A stretch of DNA of 22,886 nucleotides from a virus. Below, piece by piece: positions 1,576-16,694 of this stretch. Both the position numbers and the translations under genes were made by a program. The notes under the pieces were generated by a model. That model made no database searches, had not been told where the DNA came from, and saw only the letters and a program-made list of their open reading frames with translations. The stretch is from IMG/VR virus record IMGVR_UViG_3300037184_000085, positions 1 to 22,886 of that record, one strand, 5' to 3'. The stretch's first letter is position 1. Every line of letters begins with the position of its first letter.

Positions 1576-1661
1576 GCGGAGGTGGCGAAATTGGCAGACG
1601 CACCAGCTTGAGGTGCTGGCGCCCACAAGGCATAGGGGTTCAAGTCCCCTCTTCCGCACCA
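1576..1661 (+). tRNA. tRNA-Leu (anticodon GAG), CCA encoded
   Basis: The 86-base gene folds as a class II tRNA. The acceptor arm GCGGAGG (1576-1582) pairs with CTTCCGC (1651-1657, one G-T pair), followed by discriminator A and encoded CCA. The D-arm region contains TTGGCAGA. The anticodon stem is CCAGC/GCTGG (1603-1607, 1615-1619), with the 7-base loop TTGAGGT and anticodon GAG at 1610-1612. There is a long variable arm, and the T arm is AGGGG-TTCAAGT-CCCCT. GAG reads CUC/CUU leucine codons. Phage structural genes begin just past its 3' end, making it the likely integration target. Confidence 0.95.
1634..1661 (+). other. predicted prophage attachment core at the 3' end of tRNA-Leu
   Basis: Host-like genes end here and prophage genes begin within about 260 bases. 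Tyrosine-recombinase prophages commonly recombine within the T-arm and acceptor 3' half of a tRNA gene and regenerate it, which leaves a direct repeat at the distal end. The second copy and the integrase are outside the window, so core length and exact crossover are unknown. The interval given is the T arm to CCA. Confidence 0.4.
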
Positions 1662-2621: not shown

Positions 2622-2960
2622 TTAGTTAATTGTGGTTCCATAATTCGGCTCAACCTCAGCCAGCATTGCTATCAGTGCGCCCATCGACATTCCCGCTGTC
2701 GCGCCCTTGTCGGCATACGCAGCTATGATTGCCGGATTCACCGGAGTTGGGTCATACAAAAGTGGGCAAACAATTACTCGCGGGTCTTCTTTTGCTGCGG
2801 CAATCTGATGCGTGTTGCATAGCACCTGGCATAGAGCGGAGCCGCCCTCTGTTGGAAAACAGGGACAATGCCAACCACTACCATAGGCGGAGGCTACAGG
2901 AGCCATCACCCCGATTAAGTCGTCGTGGTAGAACTGACTATATATCCATCTGCTAGTCAT
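2622..2960 (-). CDS. hypothetical phage protein, 112 aa
   Basis: I do not recognise this protein. Four cysteines lie at residues 32-49 (in HCPCF, ALCQ and LCN), and a fifth lies in VIVCPL. The C-terminal half is Ala/Met-rich, including ATAGMSMGALIAMLAEV, which is helical and only mildly hydrophobic. There is no signal peptide. A strong AAGGAAGG ribosome binding site precedes the ATG. It sits between the tail-tip gene and the holin/lysozyme pair, so it may be a small tail-associated or lysis-accessory protein. Position is the only support for either. Confidence 0.6.
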   Translation of the reverse strand: MTSRWIYSQFYHDDLIGVMAPVASAYGSGWHCPCFPTEGGSALCQVLCNTHQIAAAKEDPRVIVCPLLYDPTPVNPAIIAAYADKGATAGMSMGALIAMLAEVEPNYGTTIN

Positions 2961-2996
2961 TAGATTTAGCCTTCCTTTTCTTCCACTTTTCGATTT

Positions 2997-5900
2997 CTAT
3001 GAATTTATAGACTGGTTATGGATAAGCAGGTCGCCGATGTAGTAATTGTGATCGTTGTCAATACCAGCTTCAACAGTAATCATGACCTTAGTGCCCTTGT
3101 CTCCATTAAACGAGGCGCTTGGAACCATAAAAGCGGGCATCCACTGCTCGTTGTAATGCACTGACTCACACGGGCTATTCTTGTGCCCGCCGATGACACG
3201 CCATGCGTAACAGGTCTCCTTGCGTATGTGGATGACCCGTCTGTATACATCCTCGCCAGTTGTGAATGAGTGACCGAGAATGTAGTTGCCCACAACCACA
3301 TCGCCAGCGGCTATCTTCCCCCTATCCCTCTCACACACTATCTCTTGAGATTCTGGACAGCTTATACCACCGCTACCACCACCAGTACCACCACCAGATG
3401 CTGAGGTGGTAATCGTGACCGCTCCGAGTGAGATACGTCCATCAGCGGCTGCTTGCAACGCCATCGTTGCATTCGCCACTGTTGGCGGTGGATTGCCGTT
3501 TGTAGCCATAAGGTTGCCTGATGCAACTGAGACGTATGGGTATAAATGATAAGTGGTATAGGCTGACAGCCCCGTGTAACTTAGTGATGCCGCATTTACC
3601 GTCTGTGTGCTGCCATCAGCGCGTAACAGGCTTTGTGCCGCCACGGATACCCCAACAGAGGATGACGAGTACGACGTGGTGTACACCACATTCTCGTTAG
3701 GAATTATGCTTCCCTGCCCGTTGAGAAGTGTACTCGTTCCATTCCCCACCAGTGCGCCTTGTTCAATCAATCCAGTCGATGCAGATACCGTGCCCGGATT
3801 AAGCCCCGGCACTGTAAATGTTACAGTGCCTAGGGTTGATAAATCTTGAGCACAATTGCCAACCCAGTTCACGGATTGATATTTGAAATACAATGTCTTA
3901 CTGACCCAAGATGGGTCATACGTGTATTTCAGCACGGATGAGTCCAGCCGCATAAACAGGGAACCAGCAGCATGGGCACCGATAGTGGAACTCATTTGTC
4001 CACGGCGGAGATAGCCACTCATTGTGTAAGTATTATTGCCGGTCAGGGCACACGTCGAGTAGCTGATGATTTCCCCATCAACATAGCACATCGTATTGCC
4101 ACTGTCGGCGTCTAAGTGTGTGCCCGACTCCAGCGGTGCTGAGTTGTCCACCAGTTCCACGACCAGACTCGCGGTCGTGTCAGGATCACTAGTAACAGCC
4201 AGAGCAGACGTGAGTGTGCCCATCCTTGCAGCGTTGGGGATGCTTCCAATTTGCAGATATTTGGTGTTATCTTGACTAACCCAAACGTTGCAAGCGCCCC
4301 AGTCTGATGAGGGACCGGATGCGCCAATCCAGATTTGGTTGCCTTGATACCGGGTCAACGCACTGGTGGCTTCAAACATCACAACCTCAGAGTTCCCCGG
4401 CTGGCTGTATGCATTGAGCAGGGTAGTGCCAGTAGAGATTCCCTTGTTATAAATCGACGGCTGGTGTACGCCCCAGAGATAGTCTTCACACGTGATTTCA
4501 AGCCCGTTCTTGGGGTCATCGACAATCTTGGTGATACGCACCGGCAAAGTCACAATGTCTAAATTGACATTGTTTGAATTAGCCGACCATAAAGAAGAGG
4601 TGGTGATGTTGATAATGTCCAGCGGCTCAAGGTAGCTGTAAGTGTACGGCACTGAGAACGTGTATGTGTTGCGGATGTTCACACTTCGCTTGACGCGCAT
4701 ACTGGCAGCGAACGTAGCCGCTGGTAAAGTGCAAATGAAGTCCCAGTCTTGCGCGTCTTCTACCCTTAGACCATAGCGGTTAATGGCAGCTTGATCAGAC
4801 TCGCTGACGATTTCATCGCAATACTGATTAGAGCGGTTTTTGAATTGTACCTGTACTTTGTTGCTTGCATCCTGCCATGCAGACCGCTCAATCTTAACTG
4901 GGTCTTCGCCCTCTTTACCAATGAAACAGGTGTCGTCCAAACTGACTATGGACTCCGCCGGGGCTATCCATGTGCAGCCGTTAGCAGCCGCAGAGGTGTC
5001 ACCGTAAGGCACAAGTTTGAGCAAACCCTCAGACATGAAGGCGGCACACATCCCAGCCTCAAGCCACTTACCCATGGTGGATGCAGCGGTGTCTTGTGAG
5101 TCGATGATCGGTGAAATGAAGAAGCTCTGGGCAGCAAACCAATTCCATGCAGTGCTATTTGCCGACTGAGTGCCAGCCGTACCCGGTGTCCCCCATGTCA
5201 CTGAATCGATGACTGACGTAGGGAATGGAACCAGACCGGAGCCGAGACCCCACTGCGTATTAGTTAATACCTTGCTGATGCAAGCCACAGGGTTGCAGTC
5301 GATGACTCCAGCGCCGAAACCATCGGGGGTTATAACTTCAAAAACGTTATCCTGAATTTCGGCGGATGTACCCAGTGACATTGGGCTAAACAACAGGTAA
5401 GCAATGCCGGGGTATGCTAGAGACTCGCTCGATGATACATAGGGGGCAGGGGATTGACCCGCACCTCCGCCGTATAACTCATAGTTTAGTGTTGTGGGGG
5501 CGGACGGTTGAACGGCATTGGTGTTGGTATAGCTCCACGTAATGAGAACTTCGTTGCCAATATCCCCCGATGCAAACTTGTATTCTGGTGCTGACGAGTT
5601 GTTTGAGGTGAAGCTATAGGTTCCTGTCTCAGTAGGCGTACCCTCGACAGCAGTTAGTGCCTCACCATCAAGGCTGTTACCGTTGTTGTAATAGACCACC
5701 CCGTAATCGACCTGTGGTCCGTTGCTGCCACCGGGATAAATGGGGGACGCGCCAATAAGGTCAACCTCAGTCTGCATGAACTGAGTCAACGAATAGGAGT
5801 AGCTCATCTGGACAGTAGCTCCAGCCGCAACATCCGCCCCTGAGAAGTAGTAGGTTCCCGTCGCGGGGTTGTACGTATACTGACCAGTGGCTAAGCCACC

Positions 5901-6389
5901 TTGACCACCAGAGGAGTAAGGCACCGAATTCATTGAGCTATAGTTAGACCCAGACAGGGTTGTGCCGTAAGAGCCGTAATCGTTGTACGTCCCTGAGTAA
6001 TTTGTGTTGATTCCTACCCCGTTGTCGCCGGTAAGGTTGCCCGATGGGGTGTAGCTGGATGATGTAAGCGTGTGTGTTGTGTTTCCGTAGCTGCTAGCAA
6101 GCCACGTTTGCCCAGACCAGACATTACCAATGGCGGACACAGGACCGGCGCAGAGCGCGGTGATTACATCGGCGGAGTACAGATACTCATCCCCACCCTT
6201 GCCGCTGCCCTTGCCCCCGCCGCCCGTGGAGGATGAGACCTCTTGCGAGGTCAGGCTATCAAGCCAGATGAGGCTCTGAGGGACTTTGTTTGCACCCATG
6301 ACAACAGTGAGAGGGTAACCCTGCTTGCTCTGGGTGATTTGGACGCCGTTGACCTTTGTAGGTCCGGTGCTGCTATTTTGGAAACCCAT
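2997..6389 (-). CDS. J-like tail tip / central tail hub protein with C-terminal Hint domain
   Basis: The 1130-residue protein sits after the DUF2163 and NlpC/P60 genes, the place of lambda J. Its N terminus (to about residue 100) contains KVPQSLIWLDSL, a Gly/Lys-rich linker (56-66) and ALCAGPVSAIGNVW, which is typical of siphophage tip-attachment proteins. Two related beta modules follow, ending TYYFSGADVAAGATVQMSYSY (about 180-200, interrupted here by one residue class change) and KFASGDIGNEVLITWSYT (about 271-288). The middle holds DCNPVACISKVLTN, usual in the hub region. After a Gly-rich linker, residues 1011-1125 form a Hint domain starting at Cys1011 and ending HN. Only five residues follow. 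A GAGG precedes the ATG, and the gene starts 2 bases after NlpC/P60. Its expected role is DNA-channel closure and receptor contact at the tail tip. Confidence 0.85.
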   Translation of the reverse strand: MGFQNSSTGPTKVNGVQITQSKQGYPLTVVMGANKVPQSLIWLDSLTSQEVSSSTGGGGKGSGKGGDEYLYSADVITALCAGPVSAIGNVWSGQTWLASSYGNTTHTLTSSSYTPSGNLTGDNGVGINTNYSGTYNDYGSYGTTLSGSNYSSMNSVPYSSGGQGGLATGQYTYNPATGTYYFSGADVAAGATVQMSYSYSLTQFMQTEVDLIGASPIYPGGSNGPQVDYGVVYYNNGNSLDGEALTAVEGTPTETGTYSFTSNNSSAPEYKFASGDIGNEVLITWSYTNTNAVQPSAPTTLNYELYGGGAGQSPAPYVSSSESLAYPGIAYLLFSPMSLGTSAEIQDNVFEVITPDGFGAGVIDCNPVACISKVLTNTQWGLGSGLVPFPTSVIDSVTWGTPGTAGTQSANSTAWNWFAAQSFFISPIIDSQDTAASTMGKWLEAGMCAAFMSEGLLKLVPYGDTSAAANGCTWIAPAESIVSLDDTCFIGKEGEDPVKIERSAWQDASNKVQVQFKNRSNQYCDEIVSESDQAAINRYGLRVEDAQDWDFICTLPAATFAASMRVKRSVNIRNTYTFSVPYTYSYLEPLDIINITTSSLWSANSNNVNLDIVTLPVRITKIVDDPKNGLEITCEDYLWGVHQPSIYNKGISTGTTLLNAYSQPGNSEVVMFEATSALTRYQGNQIWIGASGPSSDWGACNVWVSQDNTKYLQIGSIPNAARMGTLTSALAVTSDPDTTASLVVELVDNSAPLESGTHLDADSGNTMCYVDGEIISYSTCALTGNNTYTMSGYLRRGQMSSTIGAHAAGSLFMRLDSSVLKYTYDPSWVSKTLYFKYQSVNWVGNCAQDLSTLGTVTFTVPGLNPGTVSASTGLIEQGALVGNGTSTLLNGQGSIIPNENVVYTTSYSSSSVGVSVAAQSLLRADGSTQTVNAASLSYTGLSAYTTYHLYPYVSVASGNLMATNGNPPPTVANATMALQAAADGRISLGAVTITTSASGGGTGGGSGGISCPESQEIVCERDRGKIAAGDVVVGNYILGHSFTTGEDVYRRVIHIRKETCYAWRVIGGHKNSPCESVHYNEQWMPAFMVPSASFNGDKGTKVMITVEAGIDNDHNYYIGDLLIHNQSINS
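3015..3359 (-). other. Hint (hedgehog/intein-like) domain encoded at the 3' end of the tail tip gene
   Basis: Residues 1011-1125 of the tail tip protein begin with CPESQEIV after a Gly-rich linker. They continue with KIAAGDVVVGN (the usual AGD-x-V turn), a segment around SVHYNEQWMPAF with His1078 at the block-B position, and end YYIGDLLIHN, the classic C-terminal block with His1124-Asn1125. Cys at the first position and terminal HN are the residues used by inteins and bacterial intein-like domains for the N-S shift and Asn cyclisation. The domain ends the protein rather than interrupting it, as seen in other phage tail Hint domains, so protein splicing in the intein sense is unlikely. Self-cleavage or cross-linking is possible. 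Confidence 0.75.
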
Positions 6390-6391
6390 AT

Positions 6392-6847
6392 TTAGCCTCT
6401 ATCGTCGTTTAAGGTCATAATCTTGCGTGTAACTGTCATTAACTTGGGGTGTTTCGTCACATCGACTTCTCTGACGCCCCCGTGCGCGAGTGCATGGACA
6501 ATACGGGGCCACTCGGTAACAATTCCACCGTGGGCGTATGCATGACCAATGAGGAACAGAACAATATCACCCGGCTGGACTTCTTCTTCGGTTATCTCGT
6601 GAGTGAACTGTTCCACGAGGTTAAAATAGGTAGTGTCTGCACGATGCTGGGCAACCTGTAGGCTGTACGAGGGATCGATGCCTAAGTCACCCTGTGGAAT
6701 AAGCTGTGCCTCTTGGTAAACCATGCGTAAAAGCTGCCCACAATCGGTGCCCCCCTTGGGTCCACGAATAGATGCCCAGCCAATATACGGGGTTCCAATC
6801 CATGACTTTGCAATTCTAACTACTGCATTTTGCTCTTCTTTAGTCAT
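6392..6847 (-). CDS. NlpC/P60-family tail peptidase (lambda K-like / GTA gp14-like)
   Basis: The 151-residue protein has the papain-like NlpC/P60 layout. Catalytic Cys36 is in GGTDCGQLL, His106 in YAHGGIV, and a third polar residue is probably His118 in IVHALAHGG. The N terminus AKSWIGTPYIGW is the usual family start. In siphophages and gene transfer agents this protein sits at the tail tip and cleaves peptidoglycan peptide stems during DNA entry or helps tail assembly. It lies between DUF2163 and the J-like gene, its conserved position. AAGGA precedes the ATG with good spacing. Confidence 0.92.
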   Translation of the reverse strand: MTKEEQNAVVRIAKSWIGTPYIGWASIRGPKGGTDCGQLLRMVYQEAQLIPQGDLGIDPSYSLQVAQHRADTTYFNLVEQFTHEITEEEVQPGDIVLFLIGHAYAHGGIVTEWPRIVHALAHGGVREVDVTKHPKLMTVTRKIMTLNDDRG

Positions 6848-6858
6848 AACAATCCTTA

Positions 6859-7797
6859 CTAAGCGGCGTCGCTTGATGGAGGGGTGAAAGGGGTTCCGCC
6901 AAACTGGTACAGGTTACTGACCGTTGCGCCGGAAATCTGTACGAGTTTGGAACAAGCTGCCATCGTCTTGTTACATCCCATGATGACGCTGAAAGTATCC
7001 CCTACAGCCGGTGGTGAAATCCATGGAGTAGACAACTCCAGATGACCTGATGAGTCATGGGTACGAACCGTTTGACTTAGTCCGGCATTGGCTCCAGCCG
7101 TGCAGGTTACCACGCCTTGCGTGTAATAGCCAGCAGCTTGGCTGAAAGCCGTAGCCGGTATCAGTGTGTAATTCGTGCTCCCTGTTGCCGCCGTGAACAC
7201 ATGAGTGTAGTTAGCCGCCAATTGACCGCAGCTTGAGTCGCAAAATCCCCACGGGCAATCGGCTTGGAACAGTCGAGTGGGAATCTTCATGTCGAGCAAA
7301 TACAGTGGGTCTGCACATTCAAACTCAACATGGACACGGTTAATGTCACTGATCTTGGTAACCGTGCCGACAAACTTAGTTTCAAGCCCAGCGGAAACAT
7401 TGCCATAGTTGCCCAAAGGCATATATGCCGTTTGAACTGTAACCTTGGCACCATCAAACAGCCCCTGCAAAGCAGCATTGAGGAGCATAATCGACGTACC
7501 GGGGTAGTTTGTTGCTGGCTGCACAACGCAGGTTAGCTCCATCGTGTTTGAGTTGAGGGAGAACCCAGCCTCGCTCGTGATAGCACCCCGACTCCATCTG
7601 CCGTATTGAGCGGCAGAGAATGTAGTCGTCGCACCAGTCCAACCGCCCGTGCCAGCGGGGACGGTGATATTCTGTGGTCCTTCGCATAGATACACCGTCG
7701 CGCCCGTTGGCAAAGTCAGAGTGAAGAGGTCTGACTTTAGGCAGTTTAGGTTAGTTTGTAAAAACTCAATTAGTGAAGATGGCATCAAGCGTTTCAT
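6859..7797 (-). CDS. DUF2163 / BR0599-family tail hub protein, probable Fe-S cluster
   Basis: The 312-residue protein opens with LIEFLQTN and DLFTLTLPTGATVYLC, typical of the BR0599 family (lambda L-like, gene transfer agent hub protein). It includes the pattern RGAITSEAGFSLNSNTMELT near residues 70-89. Cysteines at 181, 186, 190, 275 and 282 (C-x4-C-x3-C and C-x6-C) match the cysteine-rich C-terminal region that holds a [4Fe-4S] cluster in lambda L and the GTA homologue. The cluster here is inferred. The protein should form the ring joining the tail tube end to the tip. AAGGA lies upstream of the chosen ATG. It would normally follow DUF2460 directly, but two fibre-like genes intervene here. 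Confidence 0.88.
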   Translation of the reverse strand: MKRLMPSSLIEFLQTNLNCLKSDLFTLTLPTGATVYLCEGPQNITVPAGTGGWTGATTTFSAAQYGRWSRGAITSEAGFSLNSNTMELTCVVQPATNYPGTSIMLLNAALQGLFDGAKVTVQTAYMPLGNYGNVSAGLETKFVGTVTKISDINRVHVEFECADPLYLLDMKIPTRLFQADCPWGFCDSSCGQLAANYTHVFTAATGSTNYTLIPATAFSQAAGYYTQGVVTCTAGANAGLSQTVRTHDSSGHLELSTPWISPPAVGDTFSVIMGCNKTMAACSKLVQISGATVSNLYQFGGTPFTPPSSDAA

Positions 7798-7849
7798 TTA
7801 GAGTCCTTAGTTCATAATGTTATAGTTGTACGGGCTGGTAGACATTCAA

Positions 7850-8530
7850 CTAGTTAAGGATGAAAGCTACTGTGCCATAATAAAATGCAGCGCCAACTAT
7901 AGATACTCCTGGGTTGTAGGTGCCCGCTGATTGAACGGAATTGCCGCACTCTATTTGAGGTTCTAACCAGCTATAGCCAGTGCCTGGGCTAATTGATGTT
8001 CCTCCCATTATAAATCCACACACTTCCCATGCGCCAGAGCCAGTGGTCGTGACGCTGCCCGTTGCTGTGATTATTGGATTATAGTTGTAATTTATTCCAG
8101 ATACCGGCCCGATGGGCGTGCTGGAGTTAACCCCGGAAACTTCTTCCGCAGTATGGCTATCTCCGTTGTATCCGACGGTCGCTAACGAAACACTTGTTGT
8201 GCCCGCCGGAATGCCAGTAATGATGTATCCCATATAATTGGGTGAGCCAATATCTGTTGCTGGCCACTGCGTCATTGTGCCGGGAGTAGAAGCGGTGGGG
8301 ATATAGTACCAGTATCCCCCCATGATCAGTGAATCACCGCTCGCAAGTCCCGAACTCGCTGTGCAAACAGTCGTGGAGGCACCCACAGCTTTGACACATG
8401 ACCACGCTTTGACCGCCGTGAAGCTGTGGCTGACTGAGGTTTGATGATACCGGGCAAAGATAGTTTCTTGCCCCCTACTCACAGGTAAAGGCAAACATAA
8501 AAGAGCAAGAATGAAAATAAGTTTTTTCAT
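7850..8530 (-). CDS. signal-peptide-bearing fibre-cassette protein, 226 aa, unknown function
   Basis: The N terminus MKKLIFILALLCLPLPVSRG is a textbook Sec signal peptide (KK, hydrophobic core, cleavage probably near Gly20-Gln21). There is no lipobox (the residue before Cys is Leu). The remaining ~205 residues are Gly/Ser/Thr-rich and beta-like, with many short turns (for example CTASSGLASGDSLIMGG and GSVTTTGSGAWEVCGF), and carry several cysteines. I do not recognise the family. The ATG overlaps the stop of the large fibre gene as TAATG, so the pair is coupled. A signal peptide is unusual for a protein encoded within a tail module. It could be an exported host-surface protein (moron) or a structural protein with a retained N-terminal helix. 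Confidence 0.75.
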   Translation of the reverse strand: MKKLIFILALLCLPLPVSRGQETIFARYHQTSVSHSFTAVKAWSCVKAVGASTTVCTASSGLASGDSLIMGGYWYYIPTASTPGTMTQWPATDIGSPNYMGYIITGIPAGTTSVSLATVGYNGDSHTAEEVSGVNSSTPIGPVSGINYNYNPIITATGSVTTTGSGAWEVCGFIMGGTSISPGTGYSWLEPQIECGNSVQSAGTYNPGVSIVGAAFYYGTVAFILN

Positions 8531-11202
8531 TAGTAAGTGTACTCCACAATCATTGCTATTGAAGTGCCTGTGAGAGTTCCGGCCATGGCTGGATCAATAC
8601 CTGTTCCGGTTGTCCAACTTGCATTACTCACTGTGCCAGAGGACGAGTAAGCGTAGCTATTTCCGCAGGTCAGCGCCCCGCTTAATATTGTTGTGCCGGT
8701 TCCTGCACTTCCAAAAGTGGGGTTGACGGTCGTTGTATTTGAACCAACGCTACTTCGACATTTAACTGCTGTAATTGTGCGTGTAACACCAGAGTCGTTA
8801 TAGCACGCATTGTTGACCGCAGCATCATCTCCTGATGTCAAGACAAAGGAGGCTCCACTGCCACCCCATGCTTCAGTGCAAGAACCTTTTGTGTATTGAG
8901 ATGGAAGAGTGTAGCCACTAAGCGCCACCCACGCAGAAGCGATGCACATATAAAGATCGCTGCCGATGCTACCACCGCCTGAATACAACTCCAACGACCC
9001 GGTGTTACATGAGCCGGAAGGAGCCGCCGAGGTGAAGATCAGCGCCGGTTTACCGTAGGCTCCAATGTAAGTGGACACGGTAGATGAGCAGGTTGCCTCA
9101 TAGCCAATACAAACCGTGCTGGAGTCCGAGCCATTGGTTGTATTGGCAGAGCGACCAAGTAGGGTGTTATAGTTGCCGGTCGTGGGGGTGGCTCCTGTAG
9201 ATTCTCCAAGGAACGAGTTATTAGAACCTGTTGTTATACCCAGACCGCTGCCCGTCCCGATAATCGTGTTATTGTATCCGGAGGTTACAGACGTGGAATT
9301 ATTGTAACCCAGAAAAGTGTTATACATACCTGTGATCGAGCTACTTCCCGCTTCCCCAAAGATCGTGTTATACCACACAAGGTCGTTGTTTACTGCGTAG
9401 GTAGATAGGAAAGTACCGAAGGATGCCGCACCAGAACCATTGATAAACGCGCACGCTGTACTTGTTCCACAGTACCAATACTCACCGCCGGTCTGCGCGT
9501 TGTTATAGTTATGGACAAGATTTTTCCCTCCCCACGTATTAAGATCAAACTCTCCATTAGGATTCATCGTTATAGCCGTCTGGTTTGTTGGGTTGTAAGT
9601 AAAATTCAGTTGTCCAGACGGACTTTTGCCAGCAGTCCACGTCTTCACTAATGAACCTGTTGCGCCGGAACCCCAAACAAAGTCAACCTCTTGAGGGACG
9701 GTTACTCCAGCCGCGATGTAAAAGGTCATTGTAGCATCTTGGCATAGCTGCCGAATTATCGACCCCGCGCCGAACCCTCCGACTATATTAAGTCCGTCCA
9801 CGTCGCAAACAGTTGCTGGCAGGTAACTGTTGCCATGCGCACCATTCTGCTGCTGGGCATTCAAAAAACCATTCCCACGGTAGTTATTCGCCATGCCGCC
9901 ATCAAATAAAATGGGAACAGTGGTGCAGCAACCGTCTGGTCGTATATCCCCCACTCCGCCAGATGCGTATGTATGCACGCCGTAGTAGCACCCCTCTAAA
10001 TCAGTCCAGTGCATGGTGAATTCACCTTCTTGGATAGTTACACAGGCTTGGTAAGCTGCTATCCCTGTTGTGGCTGCAACGCTGATAGTTACAGGACTTC
10101 CCGCACAGGTGCCTGTTGAGCCGCTGTTGCAGGTCGCCGTAGTTGGATTGGTACAACCCGCCGAAGCTCCAATCATGGGCGTTGCGCTGACGAAAGCCCC
10201 GCTTGCAAGCAGCACTGTCGAAGTTCCGCCTGAGCAGCCATTATTAAAATTGCTCAAGAATATATCGCCGCTTCCACTAAACGTCCCTCCACTTATGCCA
10301 GTAATCGTTGTGCTATGGTTTTGCGATGCGTTGATATGGGTATCACCATCGACAGTTACCTGTGCCCAGTCCGCCAACCCGGTGCCGGTTTCGAGCACGC
10401 CTGAACCGCCTGAAATAAATGAGTTATGAATCTCTAATTGCTGTGAATAATACCCTGTGATGTTTGGTGTTTCCAATTCCAGCGAAGGCGCGGGGTTTGT
10501 GCCACCGGTGGAGAGGCTGAGCCGAAGATTGTCCAGGATAATATGGGCAGACGGACTCCCTAGATAGAGTGCTCCACCACCATCTGAGGTTGCACGTATA
10601 CCTATATGGCTTAGTTCGATAGCTTGCACAAAGATACCAGCGGTGGGACCGTCCGTAATAGACCATGCAAAAGTTGACCCTCCATAATTGAAATAAGCTC
10701 CCGCCGCCGTTCCTGCTATATTGGAGGGCATCACGTCTGATCTAACTGTGAAGTTCTGGACTGTCCCCGCCGCTCCATTGTTTTCGATTAAGACGCGGTA
10801 AACGCCCATATTCACGGTTAGATTTGAACTGAGCAAGAGCGCCATTCCTGATGCGTTCGAGGCGGTCAGGGCAAGGTCTGCGTCCATTGACCATGTGCCT
10901 GACATAGTGCGTGCGTCAGCGATGTTGCTGCCAGCAGCCCGCGCAGCGACTAGACAAGCTGTGATCACCTCACTCCACTTTGTAGTGTCGGAGCCAGCAA
11001 TAGAGTTGCACACAAACGGAACCCCTAGTGTAGCCAGCGGCAGATACCCAGAGATGTTAGTAGGATTGGCTGCATCATGTTGCCAAATTACATTTGCCCC
11101 GCCGGTCGGTGCGGCTGGTGTGGTATTGGAAAAGTTAACGCCGGAAGTCTGTGCAAACGCCGACCCTGTGAGTAGCGCGAATAGAATTAATAGCTTATAC
11201 AT
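8530..11202 (-). CDS. large beta-structured tail fibre/tailspike-like protein with N-terminal signal peptide
   Basis: The 890-residue protein begins MYKLLILFALLTGSAFA, a signal peptide with an AFA cleavage site before QTSG. The next segment (NTTPAAPTGGANVIWQ and NISGYLPLA) resembles the start of some phage fibre proteins. Residues about 95-400 are rich in beta-strand and Gly/Asn/Ser, as in right-handed beta-helix tailspikes. Residues about 611-715 carry short YNT-hydrophobic-hydrophobic-G repeats like those of trimeric adhesin/fibre heads. The C-terminal region (ITAVKCRSS to MIVEYTY) is beta-rich. TTGGAG precedes the ATG. It lies between DUF2460 and DUF2163, so a receptor-binding role is likely, while the signal peptide raises the alternative of export to the cell envelope. 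Confidence 0.8.
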   Translation of the reverse strand: MYKLLILFALLTGSAFAQTSGVNFSNTTPAAPTGGANVIWQHDAANPTNISGYLPLATLGVPFVCNSIAGSDTTKWSEVITACLVAARAAGSNIADARTMSGTWSMDADLALTASNASGMALLLSSNLTVNMGVYRVLIENNGAAGTVQNFTVRSDVMPSNIAGTAAGAYFNYGGSTFAWSITDGPTAGIFVQAIELSHIGIRATSDGGGALYLGSPSAHIILDNLRLSLSTGGTNPAPSLELETPNITGYYSQQLEIHNSFISGGSGVLETGTGLADWAQVTVDGDTHINASQNHSTTITGISGGTFSGSGDIFLSNFNNGCSGGTSTVLLASGAFVSATPMIGASAGCTNPTTATCNSGSTGTCAGSPVTISVAATTGIAAYQACVTIQEGEFTMHWTDLEGCYYGVHTYASGGVGDIRPDGCCTTVPILFDGGMANNYRGNGFLNAQQQNGAHGNSYLPATVCDVDGLNIVGGFGAGSIIRQLCQDATMTFYIAAGVTVPQEVDFVWGSGATGSLVKTWTAGKSPSGQLNFTYNPTNQTAITMNPNGEFDLNTWGGKNLVHNYNNAQTGGEYWYCGTSTACAFINGSGAASFGTFLSTYAVNNDLVWYNTIFGEAGSSSITGMYNTFLGYNNSTSVTSGYNNTIIGTGSGLGITTGSNNSFLGESTGATPTTGNYNTLLGRSANTTNGSDSSTVCIGYEATCSSTVSTYIGAYGKPALIFTSAAPSGSCNTGSLELYSGGGSIGSDLYMCIASAWVALSGYTLPSQYTKGSCTEAWGGSGASFVLTSGDDAAVNNACYNDSGVTRTITAVKCRSSVGSNTTTVNPTFGSAGTGTTILSGALTCGNSYAYSSSGTVSNASWTTGTGIDPAMAGTLTGTSIAMIVEYTY
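9058..9372 (-). repeat. tandem fibre-head repeats within the large fibre gene
   Basis: About six degenerate repeats of roughly 15-17 residues have the form (Y/N)NT-x-(L/I)(L/F/I)G followed by a Ser/Thr/Gly-rich turn. Units begin YNTIFG, YNTFLG, YNNTIIG, NNSFLG, YNTLLG and a last STYIG. Such repeats form trimeric beta-rolls in YadA-like heads and phage fibres. Boundaries are approximate. Confidence 0.6.
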
Positions 11203-15986: not shown

Positions 15987-16694
15987 TTATTGTTTAATCC
16001 GGGCTATATCCGCCCAAAAACCTTTAGGTAAGTCATCTCTGCTCACCTGTGCGAATTGTTGGCAACCGCGCCCTATGTACTGTGCTAGAGGGCACTTACT
16101 ATCCTCGTGTGCGCGTGCAACGCACAATTGCTCTGCGTCGCATGAATCAAGCTGGTTGGCTTGTGCAGCTTCAAGCTGGAACCGGTAATCTTCTACGCCG
16201 GTGCTGCGAAACGGGTGTTGCCCCCACCATGACTTTCGATAACACTGACTGGTGCCGCACGCATACGGTTCGTGAGAGTGCGGACGCCCCGCTGCATAGC
16301 TATACTTGTAACAGTTACCCGTGGAGGCATCGTGGTACTGGATATTGTGCCAGCCTGTAACTGCCTTGCCTGACTCCAGCAGTCGATTAACCTGTGATTC
16401 AACTCTATCCATAGCTGACCAGTCGTCTTCATCCCATGAGATACAGACTTCTCCAGTTGCATAGCTCGTGCCAAGATTACGAAGAGCACCAACCGGCATA
16501 CGTTCACAGCGGTGGTACTTGATTCGTTCGTCATCCTCATCATCTATGAGTGACACTATACTTGTGTCACTGTTGTCTACGATGACGATTTCAAGTTCAC
16601 CCTCATAGGTCTGAAATTGAGCGCAAGCCAGAGCGAGTTGAAAGTATCTGTCACCGTACCCGACCGGAAGAATTAGACTGACTGACGGTAGCAT
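15987..16694 (-). CDS. family 2 glycosyltransferase (GT-A fold) inside the structural operon
   Basis: The 235-residue protein begins VSLILPVGYGDRYFQLALAC and ELEIVIVDNSD, the nucleotide-sugar binding start of GT2 enzymes. ALRNLGTSYATGEVCISWDEDD carries the acidic metal-binding motif (residues 88-91, D-E-D-D). A later GVEDYRF (166-172) fits the catalytic-base region. There is no membrane segment, so it should act in the cytoplasm, transferring a sugar to an unknown acceptor. It is coupled to the HK97-gp10-like gene by TAATG and lies 30 bases before the tail tube, in the same transcript. It carries 10 or more cysteines, unusual for the family. It could glycosylate a virion protein or a host surface precursor. 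Confidence 0.85.
   Translation of the reverse strand: MLPSVSLILPVGYGDRYFQLALACAQFQTYEGELEIVIVDNSDTSIVSLIDDEDDERIKYHRCERMPVGALRNLGTSYATGEVCISWDEDDWSAMDRVESQVNRLLESGKAVTGWHNIQYHDASTGNCYKYSYAAGRPHSHEPYACGTSQCYRKSWWGQHPFRSTGVEDYRFQLEAAQANQLDSCDAEQLCVARAHEDSKCPLAQYIGRGCQQFAQVSRDDLPKGFWADIARIKQ

Follow-up and report, generated by a model that had tools for sequence, protein, structure and literature searches.

The window (the whole stretch of DNA analyzed, 22,886 nucleotides, from IMG/VR virus record IMGVR_UViG_3300037184_000085) carries a gene for a megatron/J-like protein of 1130 aa (2997-6389), whose family matches identify it as a tail-tip protein; this gene, the features within it and the gene that follows it all lie on the minus strand. 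Phage-tail_3 (Pfam) was found on residues 430-598 (5.6e-18) and Rcc01698_C (Pfam) on residues 721-812 (2.1e-14), and the protein was also matched by PHROG tail protein 1101 (2.8e-62) and, partially and under the cut-off, by the NCBIfam model GTA_megatron (GTA 'megatron' baseplate protein). Directly downstream lies a gene for a 112-aa protein of an unnamed family (2622-2960), which was linked to the tail-tip gene by HMM co-occurrence and is called the companion gene here. Immediately upstream is a gene for an NlpC/P60-like peptidase (6392-6847, minus strand), and the same order of peptidase and tail-tip genes was observed in Acinetobacter phages whose related tail-tip proteins lack the Hint domain described below (L074 and L076). 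Elsewhere in the window, an ORF within the virion structural gene cluster (15987-16694, minus strand) reads from its sequence as family-2-glycosyltransferase-like, and a tRNA-Leu(GAG) gene (1576-1661, plus strand) adjoins the lysis genes. Past this tRNA gene, positions 1-1570 contain apparently bacterial genes, such as one for a SixA-like phosphatase (215-814), which gives the window the appearance of a prophage end, with integration at a tRNA gene.

The tail-tip protein ends in a domain of 115 residues (residues 1011-1125; 3015-3359), which is preceded by a Gly-rich linker (GGGTGGGSGGIS, residues 999-1010; 3360-3395) that is Gly-rich in all homologues. The initial annotation had placed an intein-like Hint domain at exactly these positions, a proposal that depended on a horseshoe-like beta fold and on homologues keeping the catalytic Cys and His-Asn (HN). 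Structure prediction gave such a fold, and both Cys and HN were invariant in the 21 distinct sequences, the window included, that we gathered stepwise from viral contigs. The final viral scan contributed one extra homologue (L085), which was compared separately from the residue alignment of 20 sequences. An AlphaFold2 model of the domain from 18 sequences (pLDDT 88.6, pTM 0.81) superseded a first model from 7 sequences (pLDDT 66.6), and when it was compared with PDB by Foldseek, all of the best 50 listed matches were Hint proteins. The best match was Tetrahymena BIL2 (E 5.3e-5, TM up to 0.77), and others included the C. thermocellum BIL (TM 0.72), Vint (TM 0.71), many inteins and Hedgehog (1at0). 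The weaker early model had given the same answer against PDB, and in BFVD it had hit numerous proteins of phages and viruses that contain a Hint domain. Judged from these models, it is nearly certain that the C terminus of the tail-tip protein has a Hint fold. On the other hand, no convincing match to the window's domain was found in curated families (Pfam, PHROGs and NCBIfam) or among PDB sequences, and no Hint family model scored above its cut-off for this domain or its homologues.

The conserved residues were compared with the motifs expected of a Hint domain. As previously annotated, Cys1011 (3357-3359), the block-A nucleophile, stands right after the Gly-rich linker, which puts the predicted scissile bond between Ser1010 and Cys1011, and the domain ends in GDLLIHN, followed by only five residues. 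Cys1011 and the invariant Pro1012 next to it were present in all 20 aligned sequences and in L085; to our knowledge, a Pro straight after Cys1 is unusual in Hint domains. His1124 and Asn1125 (3015-3020), which represent the block-G penultimate His and terminal Asn, were likewise invariant, including in L085. Thus, the residues that the annotation had assigned to the N-S acyl shift (Cys1) and to Asn cyclisation (HN) are kept throughout the family. Other positions invariant in the 20 aligned sequences were Glu1016, Val1018, Gly1039, Trp1063, Gly1068, Pro1073, Glu1075, Ala1086, Asn1115 and Leu1122. Cys1-Pro2, the penultimate His and the Asn stay invariant, and the block-B His nearly so, down to approximately 38% identity; the residue before Cys1 is variable.

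Two of the earlier motif assignments had to be revised. The proposed AGD turn is present (1028-1030, within AAGD), but it lies just before the usual block-A 'GD' position, which is occupied by Gly1034-Asn1035 in the window and by GD in most homologues. His1078 (3156-3158), which had been taken as the block-B His, is replaced by Tyr or another residue in homologues (ESVY), and the conserved one is instead His1069 (3183-3185), found in 19 of the 20 aligned sequences in the context W-R-x-x-x-G-H-(K/R) and replaced by Tyr in L073 and L085. The usual block-B motif of Hint domains is TxxH; in this family its Thr is replaced by Ile, Val, Leu or Tyr. The block-F position (His1114; 3048-3050) is variable (His, Gln, Ala or Cys). 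One homologue (L025:8001-8375) has a Cys in place of the block-F His (DECNFW) and retains Cys1 and HN, which is reminiscent of, yet not identical to, class 3 inteins. Cys1060 and Cys1074, which look invariant, were considered as a metal site and rejected, since each is lost in some homologues.

The very end of the protein shows a pattern of its own. The residue directly after Asn1125 is Gln in the window, and in homologues it is variable and mostly non-nucleophilic (Q, M, G, W, Y, N, L, P or F), with Thr in three. In the window the HN is followed by the peptide QSINS (3000-3014), whose final Ser is encoded at 3000-3002, and all homologues terminate 5-8 residues past HN with a final Ser or Cys (ten each among the 20 aligned sequences, and Cys in L085); together, Ser and Cys account for 8.8% of Hint-domain residues. 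This pattern is suggestive rather than a formal test, because the 21 sequences share ancestry, and on the Hint tree one to three changes between Ser and Cys suffice for the terminal residue. Compared with L020, the window shows a change between AGC and TCA in the codon for the final Ser, which may have gone in either direction and has kept Ser. We also considered whether the terminal residue is set by the ribosome-binding site of the companion gene. In several loci an AGC codon lies near this site; however, in the window the site follows the stop codon and the Ser codon is TCA, and in the Cys-ending homologues the site is also located after the stop codon, so this does not explain the pattern.

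The companion gene was found directly after the Hint gene in all 23 Hint contigs (22 by HMM, including the window, plus L085), with a size of 110-120 aa across the Hint loci, whereas HMM search detected it in none of the seven Hint-less relatives of the scaffold (L007-L009 and L074-L077). A search with the companion only returned solely Hint-bearing contigs, two of which were new (L072 and L073); the absence of companions without Hint rests on this one scan, as most other contigs had been found via the Hint domain. The companion protein had no match in Pfam, PHROG or phage records, and it carries neither an invariant Cys nor an N-terminal nucleophile. We infer that it is the best lead to the purpose of the Hint chemistry, which it might assist as a chaperone, set off as a trigger, or enter as the partner in a ligation. 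In L012, the companion gene is followed by a gene (5712-8819, plus strand) for a protein of 1035 aa that has collagen-like GPQG repeats and is probably a tail fibre.

Comparison of whole proteins and DNA revealed that the Hint domain does not travel alone. Ten homologous proteins (L020, L021, L012, L033-L036, L038, L072 and L073) resemble the window's protein only over residues from approximately 885 to 1130 in full-length comparison, and their N-terminal parts are unrelated, or undetectably related, to that of the window; the shared stretch is shorter in L058. This region includes, ahead of the Hint domain, a pre-Hint domain of approximately 110 aa (residues from approximately 885 to 996; 3402-3737), delimited by full-length blastp. 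At the DNA level, blastn between the window and L020 matched only 2638-3683 (69% identity), a stretch that takes in both domains, pre-Hint and Hint, together with the companion gene. Conversely, L039 matches the scaffold of the window from 3789 upward but not the cassette; thus, this phage has the same scaffold and carries a diverged module. PHROGs assigned L020 and L035 to tail fibre protein and central tail fibre J, and L015 to the tail family of the window, and the scaffold label requires at least seven changes on the Hint tree. These changes, together with the DNA match limited to the cassette, indicate that different tail scaffolds have traded the cassette. Its three parts (pre-Hint domain, Hint domain and companion gene) therefore behave as a single exchangeable unit.

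Among known systems, A-type bacterial intein-like (BIL) domains (Clostridium thermocellum BIL, 2lwy; Tetrahymena BIL2, 6y75/6tmm) most resemble the window's domain: they gave the best fold matches, share Cys1, the block-B His and the C-terminal His-Asn, and by definition (PMC7765530) do not need a +1 nucleophile, in line with the invariant HN and variable +1 residue observed here. However, identity to them is only approximately 13%, the sequence-profile search gave no match, and the present family differs in the missing block-B Thr, the invariant Pro after Cys1, the location at the extreme C terminus of phage tail-tip proteins, where 5-8 residues follow HN, and the coupling to a companion gene. 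Class 1 mini-inteins (such as NpuDnaB, 4o1r, and gp41-1, 6qaz) have the same fold, Cys1 and HN, whereas the window's domain is not inserted in a conserved protein, has neither a C-extein nor a homing endonuclease, and has Gln instead of a nucleophile (Cys, Ser or Thr) directly after the Asn. A domain that lacks both a +1 nucleophile and a C-extein cannot splice as an ordinary intein does. The Hedgehog Hog/Hint domain (1at0) is similar in fold, C-terminal position and N-S shift residue, but it uses the first step only (PMC7664689) and has a sterol-recognition region (PMC7765530), whereas the window's domain retains HN and its protein ends five residues later without such a region. Vint (PF14623; PDB 8r2c) is another fold match, and its Pfam model weakly matched a single homologue, L033 (E 0.0019; 18.5 bits, under the family cut-off of 27); unlike Vint, the domain belongs to a phage rather than a eukaryote and is not accompanied by a VWA domain. 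A polymorphic-toxin Hint domain (PT-HINT) would be expected to precede a toxin domain, and in the window there is no downstream domain and no Pfam match. Finally, the phage Hint proteins in BFVD (such as A0A6J7WKC1, 'Hint domain containing protein', and fibronectin-type proteins of uncultured Caudovirales) also place a Hint fold in virus proteins, but identity to them is only 9-20%.

Based on these comparisons, we favor, with a probability of roughly 0.6, the reading that the domain processes itself in the manner of an A-type BIL, with a thioester at Cys1011 and cleavage or ligation during tail maturation. In A-type BILs, a Cys1 thioester without a +1 nucleophile leads mainly to cleavage, and HN permits cleavage at the C-terminal side (PMC7765530, PMC7664689). 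The placement of the domain precisely where the tail-tip protein ends, on a Gly-rich linker, agrees with this reading, whereas the missing block-B Thr, the variable block-F His, the block-B Tyr in two homologues, the unusual Pro after Cys1 and the lack of a Hint family match above cut-off count against it. What the analysis shows is the fold, the conserved residues, the co-inheritance and the modularity; the individual chemical steps and the role of the companion are what we infer. After the Hint domain has folded, the Ser1010-Cys1011 bond would be converted to a thioester on Cys1011, aided by His1069. The thioester would then be resolved by water or by a nucleophile of another molecule, which would free the Hint domain from the tail tip, and cyclisation of Asn1125, aided by His1124, would release the last five residues. 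The companion protein might act together with the Hint domain as a chaperone, as a trigger or as a partner joined to the tail tip. Judging from the conserved residues, the domain is likely to be catalytically competent, and its release from the tail tip appears to be the most probable outcome. The suggestion in the initial annotation that the domain may cut itself off, or attach the tail tip to a nucleophile, agrees with the conservation and with the missing C-extein.

Several other explanations share part of this evidence. The Hint domain might be catalytically inert and serve a structural or binding role at the tail tip, such as a docking site for the companion; the motif losses listed above, including the block-B Tyr in L073 and L085, would fit such a role. 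We consider this rather doubtful: the most important positions, Cys1 and the HN at the end, do not vary even at approximately 38% identity, whereas Cys and His residues elsewhere in the domain change between homologues, and inteins tolerate the loss of the block-B and penultimate His (PMC7664689). A decayed origin, as a remnant of an intein or of a toxin-release domain of the polymorphic-toxin type whose C-terminal payload was lost, could account for the C-terminal position and the tail of 5-8 residues, but it is very improbable, since no payload or C-extein follows HN in any of the 21 sequences, and the invariant HN with a tail always ending in Ser or Cys suggests that this end is under selection rather than decaying.

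Other alternatives concern what the cassette does. It might serve receptor binding or assembly, with the companion as a chaperone of the tail-fibre-assembly type and the Hint domain as a folding aid that removes itself, with a logic comparable to that of the C-terminal intramolecular chaperones of phage spikes. A small co-inherited gene directly downstream of a C-terminal module that is swapped between scaffolds speaks for this reading, and we regard it as a tentative possibility, although the companion matches no known chaperone family in Pfam or PHROG. Alternatively, the Cys1011 thioester could serve covalent attachment, joining the tail tip to the companion, a virion protein or a nucleophile on the host surface. 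The constant proximity of the companion gene is compatible with this idea; in addition, BIL2 of Tetrahymena, the best fold match, reportedly delivers an activated ubiquitin-like protein (PMC9200820), and the title of Aranko et al. 2013, as cited in PMC7664689, indicates that BIL ligation without side-chain nucleophiles is possible. Nevertheless, attachment seems quite unlikely, as the companion offers no invariant Cys or N-terminal nucleophile, and hydrolysis would leave an identical sequence signature. It is also unlikely, if slightly less so, that the two genes together form a portable, self-activating covalent coupling device, in which the end of the tail tip would become a thioester and the companion or the terminal Ser/Cys would help pass the tail tip to an acceptor on the virion or host surface.

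We found no convincing relatives of the Hint module in 50,697 phage records, a plasmid collection or GTDB genomes. In the papers searched we came across no work on Hint domains at the tail tips of phages, none that accounts for such domains on virion proteins, and no description of this Hint family, its companion gene or the exchange between tail tips. Hint domains in phage proteins had already been annotated, and hence this is not a new kind of domain. As far as the conserved residues indicate, the Hint domain that ends the tail-tip protein probably cuts or exchanges a bond of the protein chain unaided, and our results suggest that, together with its companion, it is a portable maturation or attachment device for unrelated phage tail proteins. 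With an invariant catalytic pair at the extreme end, a strictly co-inherited companion and natural cassette exchange, the family provides a clean system. If active, it would supply thioester chemistry in compact form for ligating proteins, and it would represent a new route by which a virus could mature or covalently arm the protein that contacts its receptor.
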